A DNA stretch of 35,257 bases from Verrucomicrobiota bacterium. GTDB taxonomy: Bacteria; Verrucomicrobiota; Verrucomicrobiia; Opitutales; Opitutaceae. The position numbers and the translations under genes were made by a program. This document shows positions 531 to 32,668 of this stretch, piece by piece; the stretch's first letter is position 1, and every line of letters begins with the position of its first letter. A model generated the notes under the pieces. The model was not told the origin of the DNA. It was given only the letters and a program-made list of their open reading frames with translations, and made no database searches. The stretch is taken from assembly GCA_030601755.1 (NCBI GenBank), contig JAUWBF010000037.1, forward strand, positions 1-35,257, given 5' to 3'.

Positions 531-1681
531 GTGTAGTGCTCGTAAAATAGCGTTACGTATTCTGGGCGGCCCGGGCGCGTTGGACCTTGGCGAGGATGTC
601 GGAGGCCTTGGCGGTCCAGATAAAGGGCTTTGGGGAGCGGTTGTGAGCGGCGAGGTAGGAGTCGATGGCGTGGTGGAGTTCGTCGAGGCTTTTGAAGATG
701 CCGCGGCGCAGGCGGTTGATAGTGAGGTCGCGGAAGAAGCGCTCGACCATGTTGAGCCATGAGGCGGAGGTGGGCGTGAAGTGCAGGTGGAAGCGGGGAT
801 GTTTCGCGAGCCAGCGACGGACCTTCTCGTGTTTGTGGGTAGAGTAGTTGTCCACGATCAAATGGAGCGGTTTTTCGGGCGGGGTGCTCGCATCGATCAA
901 TCGCAGCAAGCGCAGCCATTCCTGGTGACGGTGACGCTTTTGACAGGTTCCGATCACCTTTCCGTCGGCCAGGTTGAGAGCCGCAAAAAGGGTCGTGGTG
1001 CCGTGGCGTTTGTAGTCGTGCGTTTGAGTCGCCACCTTGCCTTGGCGCAAGGGCAACCCCGGCTGGCTGCGATCCAGCGCCTGGATCTGGCTTTTCTCGT
1101 CGCAGCTCAAGACCAGGGCGTGCTCCGGAGCGTTCAAATACAGCCCGACCACATCCTCCAGTTTTTCCATGAAGCGCTTGTCCTTGGACAACTTGAAGCC
1201 TCGCGCCAAGTGCGGCTTCAGCCCGTGCGCCTGCCAGATCAACGCCACGGTGCTCGCGGCCATCCCGATCTCCCGGCCCATGCGGCGGGTGCTCCACTGC
1301 GTCGCCATCTCGGGCGTCTCCTCCAAAGTCCGCCTCACCACTTCGGCCTTTTGCTCCGGCTTGATCTTCACCGGGCGTCCCCGCCCCGCCTTGTCCTTGA
1401 GCAGCCCGGCCAATCCCGCCTCAAGATACCGAGCGCGCCACCTCGCAGCCTTTTGCCGGGTCACCGCCTCTTGTCGGCCAATCGCCTCGTCCGTCATCCC
1501 TTCCGCCGCTCCCAACACGATCCGGCATCGCTGCGCCAAGCGCTGCGTCGTCTTCCCGCTTCTCACCAACCCGTCCAACTCCGCCCTCTGCTTCTCGTCC
1601 AAATGTATCTCGCGTGCTTTTCTCATCCCACCTCCGACAGCCCATCCTAATCTTTGTTACGTTAATTGTCGGGCACTACAC
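531..1681 (-). mobile_element. IS630-family insertion sequence, complete
   Basis: The element is 1151 bp, bounded by TA dinucleotides at 529-530 and 1682-1683, which is the TA target duplication of the IS630/Tc1-mariner superfamily. Its ends are imperfect inverted repeats: the left end reads GTGTAGTGCTCGTAAAATAG and the right end, reverse complemented, reads GTGTAGTGCCCGACAATTAA. About 20 of the first 27 positions match. It carries a single full-length transposase gene and appears intact, so it may still be mobile. Confidence 0.9.
553..1626 (-). CDS. IS630-family transposase
   Basis: This 357-aa DDE transposase cuts and pastes its own element into TA sites. The N-terminal third (about residues 10-130) is the helix-turn-helix region typical of the family (winged-helix-like, with WRARYLEAGLAGLLKDKAGRG). 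The catalytic triad is visible: D176 in LSCDEKSQIQALDRS, D259 in LIVDNYSTHKH, and E295 in WLNMVERFFRD. Length is normal for a single-frame IS630 transposase; there is no frameshift or internal stop. The ATG lies 55 bases inside the right end and the stop 22 bases inside the left end, so the element carries nothing else. Identification is by family motifs and is secure. Confidence 0.95.
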   Translation of the reverse strand: MRKAREIHLDEKQRAELDGLVRSGKTTQRLAQRCRIVLGAAEGMTDEAIGRQEAVTRQKAARWRARYLEAGLAGLLKDKAGRGRPVKIKPEQKAEVVRRTLEETPEMATQWSTRRMGREIGMAASTVALIWQAHGLKPHLARGFKLSKDKRFMEKLEDVVGLYLNAPEHALVLSCDEKSQIQALDRSQPGLPLRQGKVATQTHDYKRHGTTTLFAALNLADGKVIGTCQKRHRHQEWLRLLRLIDASTPPEKPLHLIVDNYSTHKHEKVRRWLAKHPRFHLHFTPTSASWLNMVERFFRDLTINRLRRGIFKSLDELHHAIDSYLAAHNRSPKPFIWTAKASDILAKVQRARAAQNT

Positions 1682-5253: not shown

Positions 5254-5767
5254 AGGTGGATGCGGACGTCCCCGGCCGCGTTGGTCTGCGTGATTTGGGT
5301 GTTGGGTGGATGCGGGCCTCCGGACCGCGTCGCATTGGGAGCTTTGCGCGTTTGGCGGGATGACGGGACAGACGCGGCCCGGAGGTCCGCGTCCACCTTG
5401 GGCGGTTGGGGTGTTCTGGTTCCGGTGAGGTCTGCATGTGGATGCGGACGTCCCCGGCCGCGTTGGTCTGCGTGATTTGGTTGTTGGGTGGATGCGGGCC
5501 TACGGACCGCGTCGGATTGGGAGCTTTGCGCGTTGGGCGAGAAGACGGGACAGACGCGGCCCGGAGGTCACCGACCACCTAGGGCGGTGCGTATGTGCTC
5601 GTTCCGGAGAGGTATTCAGGTTTATGCGGACGTCCCCTGCCGCGTTGGTCTTCGTGATTTGGGTGTTGGGTGGATGCGGGCCTCCGGACCGCGTCGGTTT
5701 GCGAGCTTTGCGCGTTGGGCGGGGCGACGGGATAGACGCGGCCCGGAGGTCCGCGTCCACCTGGGCG
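5254..5767. repeat. Tandem array, three copies of a 182-bp unit
   Basis: Copies begin at 5254, 5436 and 5618, exactly 182 bp apart. Each unit holds arm R1 (GGTGGATGCGGACGTCCCC then GGCCGCG), about 20 bases, arm R2 (GGTGGATGCGGGCCTCCGG then ACCGCG), about 40 bases containing GGAGCTTTGCGCGTT, and an inverted arm R3 (GACGCGGCCCGGAGG then TCCGCGTCCACC), followed by a spacer of about 35 bases. All arms can form GCGG/CCGC mini-hairpins, and R2 pairs with R3. The second copy has a degenerate R3 (5553-5579) and the third a degenerate R1 foot. The array lies immediately 3' of the RAYT gene. Confidence 0.9.
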
Positions 5768-5802
5768 TCCACCTTGGGCGTCAACCTTGCGTATCCTGCT
5801 GC

Positions 5803-6258
5803 CTATCTCGGCCAATACCAAGGCCAGTCGTCGGCGGTGGGGCAGAGGTTTTTAACGACCGGGTTTTGGCGGATGTAGGTGGCCTTCGCGTCGTAGCTGT
5901 CGGCGTTGCGCAGGCGGTGATCGAAATAGCCTCGCTGCCAACTCACGCCGTGTTGCTTGGTGACGTAGGATTTCCACGCGCCGAGCACGGTCGACATGAT
6001 CTTGTCGGGAGGGAAGACGATCAGCGCATGCACATGGTCGGGCATCAGCAAAAACAAGCGGCAGTGCCAGCGTTCGGTCCGGTGATAAAACGCGACACTG
6101 TCCAGCACGGCCGCGGCGAGCGTTGGTTCGGTCAGCATGGTGCCGGTGGAGCGTATTCGGATGTGGAATACCTCGCCTGGCGGAACCCAACCGGGAACGT
6201 CGTGATGCAGTCGTGCGGGAAAACGCTCCGTGCTCGCTGGTTCATCCGGCGGGTTCAT
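5803..6258 (-). CDS. REP-associated tyrosine transposase (RAYT, Y1/HUH superfamily)
   Basis: A 151-aa single-strand DNA transposase of the Y1 (IS200-like) superfamily. The HUH motif is in LLMPDHVHALIVFP, and the helix SYDAKATYIRQNPVVKNL carries the probable catalytic tyrosine (in TYIRQNP), the arrangement typical of chromosomal RAYTs, which nick and join REP hairpins. The ATG at 6258 is preferred over an upstream TTG (6294) because related proteins start a short distance before HHDVPGWV. No Shine-Dalgarno sequence is seen. The gene has no IS ends of its own; instead it is bracketed by tandem copies of the same 182-bp hairpin unit (5254-5767 and 6315-6646), the classic sign of a RAYT with its cognate repeats. 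Length is normal and the frame is intact, so it may be active. Confidence 0.9.
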   Translation of the reverse strand: MNPPDEPASTERFPARLHHDVPGWVPPGEVFHIRIRSTGTMLTEPTLAAAVLDSVAFYHRTERWHCRLFLLMPDHVHALIVFPPDKIMSTVLGAWKSYVTKQHGVSWQRGYFDHRLRNADSYDAKATYIRQNPVVKNLCPTADDWPWYWPR

Positions 6259-6314
6259 GAGGGCAAGCGTCCGGTGCGCGTTGACCCAACGCAAGTTCGC
6301 AGGTGCACGCGTGC

Positions 6315-6646
6315 AGGTGGATGCGGACGTCCCTGGCCGCGTCGGTTTGCGTCATGTGGGTGTTGGGTGGATGCGGGCCTCCGGACCGCGTCGGTTTGAG
6401 AGCTTTGCGCGTTTGGCGAGATGACGGGACAGACGCGGCCCGGAGGTCCGCGTCCACCTTGGGCGGTGGGTTTGTGCTGGTTCCGGTGAGGTATGTAGGT
6501 GGATGCGGACGTCCCCGGCCGCGTTGGTTTGCGAGATTTGCGTGTTGGGTGGATGCGGGCCTCCGGACCGCGTCGGTTTGAGAGCTTTGCGCGTTTGGCG
6601 GGATGACGGGACAGACGCGGCCCGGAGGTCCGCGTCCACCTTGGGC
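6315..6646. repeat. Tandem array, two copies of the 182-bp unit
   Basis: Copies begin at 6315 and 6497, again 182 bp apart, and are in the same orientation as the three copies at 5254-5767. Arms R1, R2 and inverted R3 (6432-6458 and 6614-6640) are all present. The second R1 is preceded by GTAG (6495-6498), the tetranucleotide foot recognised by characterised RAYTs; the other copies have changed bases there. The array fills nearly the whole gap between the RAYT start and the guaB stop. Confidence 0.9.
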
Positions 6647-6655
6647 GTCCACTTC

Positions 6656-32480: not shown

Positions 32481-32511
32481 GACCGCGCCTTCGTCGGCGC
32501 GGTCTTTTTTT
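32481..32511 (+). terminator. Intrinsic terminator after the small secreted peptide
   Basis: GACCGCGCC, loop TTCGTC, GGCGCGGTC followed by seven T; a perfect 9-bp GC-rich stem. Confidence 0.93.
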
Positions 32512-32517
32512 GCGCGC

Positions 32518-32668
32518 TAGAGCAGCTTAAATAAAGTCGTAGCCATTTTAGGTGGAGCGGCTTGTCCCCAAGACGCTCGTTTGACGCGATGAACATCTCT
32601 CGAACGCGTTGGGGACAACGCGTTCCACCTTTAATCAAAGAGGACACAGTTTTATTTAAGACGCTCTA
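32518..32668. mobile_element. 151-bp MITE with TA ends and two internal REP-like hairpins
   Basis: Terminal inverted repeats: the left end reads TAGAGCAGCTTAAATAAAGT and the right end, reverse complemented, reads TAGAGCGTCTTAAATAAAAC (18 of the first 23 positions match). TA at both ends fits the TA duplication of IS630/Tc1-mariner elements. No coding capacity. Inside are two inverted hairpins: 32550-32578 (AGGTGGA, GCGGCTT, GTCCCC, AAGACGC) and 32602-32630 (on the minus strand AGGTGGA, ACGCGTT, GTCCCC, AACGCGT). Its ends do not match the IS630 at 531-1681, so another transposase would mobilise it. Confidence 0.8.

Follow-up and report, generated by a model that had tools for sequence, protein, structure and literature searches.

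The 151-bp element at positions 32518–32668 of the analysed DNA, a stretch of 35,257 nucleotides referred to here as the window, is quite probably a non-autonomous IS630-family MITE that captured, in its middle, a complete REPIN whose class is associated with RAYTs and then spread with it. On comparison of the sequences, we could establish the composite structure of the element, its IS630-like ends, the REP nature of its hairpins, the existence of free REPINs, and the presence of several REP classes within one arm family. A single capture followed by spread of this composite (hereafter type A), which has eight recognisable copies, three of them with both arms clear, is supported as well, although more weakly.

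MITEs are short elements with terminal inverted repeats that occur in several copies and carry no transposase, and all of these features were found in the 151-bp element. The coordinates and letters given in the original prediction were correct: TA-bounded inverted arms enclose two inverted hairpins. The terminal inverted repeats (32518–32535 and 32651–32668) showed 89% complementarity over 18 nt. The left arm (32518..32549, plus strand) consists of the IS630-type end TAGAGCAGCTTAAATAAAGTCGTAGCC and a further 5 nt or so, and scored 29.6 bits with the arm model, a sequence-only model built from 12 arms; the right arm (32631..32668, minus strand), which reads TAGAGCGTCTTAAATAAAACTGTGTCC... inward, scored 24.5 bits. 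The arms measure 32 and 38 nt up to the REP feet, and the sequence common to the family spans about 28 nt. REP hairpin 1 (32550..32579, plus strand) reads AGGTGGA-GCGGCTT-GTCCCC-AAGACGC from 32550, with foot AGGTGGA, loop GTCCCC and a stem in which 6 of 7 positions pair and one is mismatched. It is followed by an inter-REP spacer (32580..32600) that is alike in most arm-bearing copies, and by the inverted REP hairpin 2 (32601..32630, minus strand), which has the same foot and loop and reads AGGTGGA-ACGCGTT-GTCCCC-AACGCGT from 32630.

Folded as single-stranded DNA, the element reached −33.2 kcal/mol (z = −6.12 vs shuffles). Read by eye, its site has a short plus-strand open reading frame and a terminator-like hairpin on one side and a converging minus-strand open reading frame on the other. 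This strong fold, together with the terminator-like hairpin and T-run at 32481–32511 (by eye) just ahead of the MITE, would suit an element that has been retained because it acts on the two convergent genes as a functional RNA or terminator. We consider this very unlikely, given that copies lie at many places, several of them decaying, and that no Rfam family matched the stretch; the lone Rfam hit covered other bases and scored far below the gathering threshold, and an Rfam identity was rejected. A local effect of the element as a strong hairpin between the two genes is possible.

REPs are recognised by a stem-loop preceded by a GT(A/G)G foot, by many dispersed copies, and by the occurrence of the class beside a RAYT gene. 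The hairpins carry the foot AGGTGG ahead of a stem-loop and have many dispersed copies in the genome from which the window was taken (the source genome). In the window, AGGTGGAN7GTCCCC with ≤2 mismatches was found at nine sites vs 0.95 expected, a number reached by 0 of 100 shuffles; six are R1-type sites (2121, 5254, 5436, 5618, 6315, and 6497), two are the MITE hairpins, and one is weak (28469). The source genome holds 34 exact sites and 206 sites with ≤2 mismatches, which is only modestly above the 150 of a reversed-pattern control, so that the weak sites are mostly due to chance. Fifty-five sites in the fetched source-genome loci fitted an expression for foot and loop with the stem left free, and in 51 of these the stem paired at 6 or 7 of 7 positions. 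They displayed 17 different 5′ stems, which do not amount to a census because many loci had been fetched by their likeness to the MITE or by the foot–loop pattern.

The stems were further analysed on 42 distinct hairpin sequences. Here, 88.4% of the cells were paired vs 62.6% in shuffles, and the covariation score was 0.608 vs 0.183 when shuffled and ≤0.204 when slid; two of the five covariation measures (both-side changes and further pair types) did not stand out clearly, as 67 and 68 of the 500 shuffles did as well or better. The foot, the complementary and covarying stems, and the position of the class beside a RAYT gene in the relative G015 support the view that the hairpins behave as REPs. 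Passages of PMC8266576 on in vitro work with other REP systems report that the foot matters, in one group along with loop positions, that stem mismatches harm cutting, and that in one system a stem swapped for its own complement had only a moderate effect. These effects fit the idea, put forward in the original prediction, that hairpins sharing foot and loop but differing in stem obey common recognition rules, an idea which gains support from the covariation and from the G015 RAYT, flanked by the same foot and near-identical loops.

The window contains a RAYT gene (5803..6294, minus strand; Y1_Tnp 23.9 bits, cut-off 23; NF047646 REP_Tyr_transpos 74 bits, under the cut-off of 80), which was the only match of its own type in a search of the source genome. 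On both sides of it lie 182-bp repeats with R1-type REP units, AGGTGGATGCGGACGTCCCC... (5254..6650, plus strand), which have the same foot and loop as the MITE hairpins and another stem. The tandem arrangement of these units is BIME-like. The RAYT of G015, with 49% identity to the window RAYT, is flanked on one side by AGGTGG-AGCGCATT-GTCCCA-AATGCGCT and on the other, inverted, by AGGTGG-AACGCGTT-GTCCCT-AACGTGTT. The class is thus found beside a RAYT gene in G015 and, with another stem, in the window, and the window RAYT is a candidate handler of the AGGTGGA/GTCCCC hairpins. In G002, the class that flanks a RAYT (L333) was also found next to an arm (L150).

A script scan located foot-plus-hairpin units near the RAYT in 22 of 30 loci (L120 and L326–L354); the script did not require nearness in loci of <2500 bases, and it missed both the window RAYT, where R1 units are known, and that of G002, whose units can be read directly from the sequence. 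Units on opposite sides of a RAYT in these loci frequently have foot and loop in common but not the stem. A PF01797 search of the source genome retrieved three other Y1 genes and is incomplete, as the window RAYT escaped it. Six foot and loop strings were absent from two of the three other Y1 loci and only scattered in the third. A RAYT match (E ≤ 1e-10) was present in 13 of the 16 genomes with type-A hairpins vs 15 of the 41 without, a co-occurrence that is suggestive only because RAYTs are diverse.

A REPIN is defined as two inverted REPs with a short spacer that occur as a free unit. The element gave 27 BLAST matches in the source genome, located at 22 places that comprise 17 hairpin pairs and five partial places, none of the latter with arm signal. 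Eight of the 17 pairs displayed arm signal: both arms were clear in L001–L003, whereas L004, L005, L006, L008, and L009 had one arm or decayed arms, with best arm scores of 3.4 (L008), 6.4, 9.8, 9.9 (L006), and 27.7 (L009). The arm score of L080, which is not one of the 17 pairs, was 19.6. Against a background of 1776 windows (99th percentile −1.1, maximum 4.7), the score of L008 lies above the 99th percentile and below the maximum. The arm scores, along with the position in the tree described below, identify L006 and L008 as probable decayed MITEs.

The remaining nine pairs (L007 and L010–L017) showed no arm signal and represent free REPINs. The original prediction had proposed to look for further genomic copies of the element and of the bare hairpins, naming hairpins confined to the inverted-repeat context as the finding that would count against it; since nine pairs show no arm signal, no such confinement was observed, and its claim that one mobile system carries the repeats of another is supported. 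That the hairpins were instead an original internal part of the MITE, never independent, might be read from the same two hairpins being common to arm-bearing type-A copies. This explanation is extremely improbable and was rejected, in view of the armless pairs and of the class being present in 16 of 57 genomes, the source genome included, with no full-length match to the element listed in the other 15 (≤15 candidates scored per genome); the class also flanks the RAYT of G015.

A tree of the REPINs was built on about 80 aligned bases, with L009 left out. The arm-bearing L001–L006 and L008 grouped together with a modest support of 0.81, or 0.74 once a spurious row (L107_G017, not a REPIN) was removed. 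This grouping of the arm-bearing REPINs suggests that the arms moved about along with the REPIN, and the simplest reading suggested by the tree is one capture followed by spread of the arm–REPIN–arm composite as a unit. The source-genome copies look inert and decaying today.

The arms themselves were traced to a partner element. Among 273 genomes of the order, 19 gave arm matches, the source genome being one of these (E ≤ 0.003, stricter filters), and in four of them (G247, G021, G167, and G089) facing arms lie 1003–1007 bp apart. Where it was read, the DNA between facing arms encodes an IS630-type transposase: NF033545 scored 136 bits in G247 and 130 bits in G021 (cut-off 100), and a DDE_3 domain was identified in G247 and G167 (1.4e-36). 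The transposase is split into two overlapping frames in G247 and G167, a candidate frameshift, and its first frame is interrupted in G021. The MITE therefore shares its ends with an autonomous-type IS630 of 1003–1007 bp in relatives, which agrees with the prediction of IS630/mariner-like outer repeats and supplies, at about 1003 bp, the full-length IS with the same ends that it had proposed to look for. The source genome (assembly 96% complete) yielded no partner-group transposase (best hit E = 0.005, 26%), so the copies there look like relics. An exact-pattern arm scan of the genome collection returned 102 stretches, and all 80 listed titles name what we take to be members of Verrucomicrobiota, including one group labelled Akkermansia muciniphila.

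The window also holds a second IS630-family transposase gene (553–1626, minus strand; NF033545 267 bits), with R1-type REP feet close by; by eye, the ends around it (surroundings about 530–1690) read CTAGTGTAGTGC. This gene was rejected as the partner, as it aligned with the partner transposase over only 70 residues, at 29%, and its ends differ by eye. A long element at C120:10205–14744 was likewise rejected, its arms being those of two separate elements of type B (see below) with genes between them.

According to PMC2170065, IS630 elements use TA as their insertion site, which is duplicated in the process. To describe the family beyond the source genome, we used 68 two-armed elements of ≤300 bp under 27 genome labels (label duplicates possible), which were chosen by arm score and are not a census; copies within one genome are not independent. 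TA was present at both ends in 47 of the 68, at one end in 17, and at neither in 4, counts obtained with an arm model which itself favours TA. In G089, two partial IS copies (L164 and L165) begin at the same TA(G) within the cargo of two MITE copies, and uninterrupted copies of this cargo repeat read on past that TA(G).

The same arms enclose further REP classes. In the source genome, a type-B REP pair (GTAGGGCCTCACC / GTAGGGCCGGACC) was found within them in six elements, two with both arms, and four type-B pairs, one borderline, lack a clear arm. The REP feet lie 32 and 38 nt from the ends in type A and 32 and 37 nt in type B. A type-C pair (GTAGGGCCCGCGC) occurs with one arm in L135, the only locus among those viewed to hold it, and a type-D pair (GTAGCGGAA) with its feet inward occurs in L136; each is a single arm-bearing case. 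Type-D-like hairpins stand alone in L050 and L059. On the right side of L135 (G000:C36:24839 on), the type-C REPIN borders directly on a type-A-like half REP (5′ half), with the junction in the loop of the latter and letters AGGTGGCGCGACTTGTCCTT followed by GTAGGGCCTGCGC, so that one REP class seemingly sits in the loop of another.

In relatives, the arms hold pairs of GTAGGGCGA (G274 and G002), GTGGTCGCCGAT (G036), GTAGCCGGGG (G296, JANXRL, and JANYFP), and GTAGGGCGCTTC (NEUU; L245, L253, L269, and L295), the stems of the last differing between copies. By eye, these four NEUU01 copies have the same foot and different, still complementary stems, as if the stems had been exchanged in place. Two MITEs of different REP classes lie about 2 kb apart on one contig in L240 (509–638 and 2605–2766); the second is 162 bp long, as is type B in the source genome, and has other stems.

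The presence of several REP classes near the middle of the same arms could also mean that the arms are not mobile and merely form a preferred landing palindrome for REP dimers. A precedent exists in the excerpted text of PMC3733652, in which REP dimers lie in palindromes of A. variabilis and H. neapolitanus and REP-free palindromes were not found. We regard this passive role as unlikely: relatives carry a coding IS630 whose ends the arms match, the grouping of the arm-bearing REPINs points to joint spread of arms and REPIN, and the two partial IS copies of G089 begin at a TA(G) in a repeat with known uninterrupted copies.

The cargo of the 68 elements was screened with two detectors. An outward foot-plus-hairpin pair was detected in 17 of them, under 11 genome labels, with the looser detector vs 0.2 in shuffled interiors, and in 8 with the stricter one (stem score ≥7) vs 0.0 expected. 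At least one foot-plus-hairpin was present in 26 of 68 vs 4.9 in shuffles; among the remaining 42, some cargo is REP-like by eye and some consists of other repeats (CACAGATTACACAGATT, AATGGCTAAATGG, CTTTTGCGCC, and others). Both detectors miss REP-like cargo that is visible by eye in G016, G274, and parts of G266 and G193. As 51 of the 68 have no outward pair by detector (including all 7 elements of G016 and all 6 of G089), many of them with other repeats, REP capture is not the sole way in which these MITEs fill.

These observations bear on how the REPs entered. MITEs may be born by repair, when copying of an IS630 remains incomplete and the gap is filled from hairpin-rich intergenic repeats; REPs would then be one filler among others and RAYT would be uninvolved. 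Such an origin would account for the non-REP repeats in same-ended MITEs of relatives, namely CACAGATTACACAGATT in G167 and G074, AATGGCTAAATGGTTAATTG in G089, and CTTTTGCGCCTTTTTGCGGC in CAMCHD, and it is favoured by the coincidence of the REP foot with the GTAG of the arm in G296, JANXRL, JANYFP and, by eye, G016, although this coincidence in several genomes is compatible with either route of capture. On the other hand, the type-A and type-B elements of the source genome hold a whole REPIN, both of its feet included, between arms of similar length, which is more like a clean insertion. Birth by repair is a possibility to be taken seriously, which we nevertheless hold to be less than an even chance.

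Under the capture of a REPIN by an existing MITE, which we favour, a RAYT of the window type would have placed the REPIN, in single-stranded form, at or near the palindrome tip of the MITE; alternatively, the MITE could have formed around the REPIN. Cut-and-paste movement of the composite into TA sites would then have depended on an IS630 transposase that recognised these ends and has apparently been lost since, and the same carrier family would have taken up other REPINs separately. A broader proposal, which we put forward tentatively and consider rather doubtful as yet, is that the IS630-type MITE of Verrucomicrobiota acts as a general carrier of REPINs, with the tip of the palindrome, or the GTAG common to its ends and to REP feet, as a repeated point of RAYT-driven entry, and IS630 transposition as a further way for REPINs to spread, both inside a genome and from one genome to another.

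Two kinds of genome parasite, IS630-type elements and the REP/RAYT system, appear to travel together here. The original prediction could not see that other REP classes occupy the same arms and that these are spread over the phylum. If true, a DDE-transposon vehicle that repeatedly takes up REP families would amount to a partnership, or parasitism, of two unrelated transposition systems. Many REP classes in one constant frame also provide a natural experiment that allows the site and orientation of entry to be read off. Dissemination of REPs and REPINs is poorly understood, as stated in a passage of PMC8266576, and the carrier idea may explain REP dimers within long palindromes in other phyla.

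We found no literature that ties REPs to an IS630 MITE in a search of titles and abstract openings that covered neither subscription papers nor preprints, and a word search of a 2024 review of prokaryotic MITEs, in the text available, returned neither RAYT nor IS630. REP dimers inside palindromes have already been described, briefly, for A. variabilis, H. neapolitanus, and T. roseum in the excerpted part of PMC3733652; how the REPs entered the present element is what we infer. As in the A. variabilis GTAG-15 and H. neapolitanus CGTC-1 systems of that source, a REP pair lies centrally within a palindromic repeat that is longer than the pair. REP-free palindromes were not found in those systems, as far as the excerpt describes them, nor were empty arms found in the source genome, where 16 arms were detected at E ≤ 1 (150 of 578 first-look candidates scored). 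Section 7 of that source presents the palindrome as a target and assigns it to no named mobile family, whereas the arms of the source genome are tied to IS630; in contrast to the palindromes as described there, one arm family holds several REP classes in a single genome and one composite seemingly spread as a unit. The verrucomicrobial class GTAG-20 of O. terrae, which according to the same text has a GTGG foot in most members, is comparable to the present hairpins at the foot. The interior of the element is like the REPINs portrayed in the consulted part of PMC3116915, being two inverted REPs that are dispersed and thought to use RAYT, but the copy of the window sits within another mobile element. 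Like the Correia and RUP elements, which the available text of PMC2817692 presents as IS630-derived MITEs, the element is short, IS630-related, and without transposase; unlike them as described there, with no REP cargo, its interior is a second mobile repeat.
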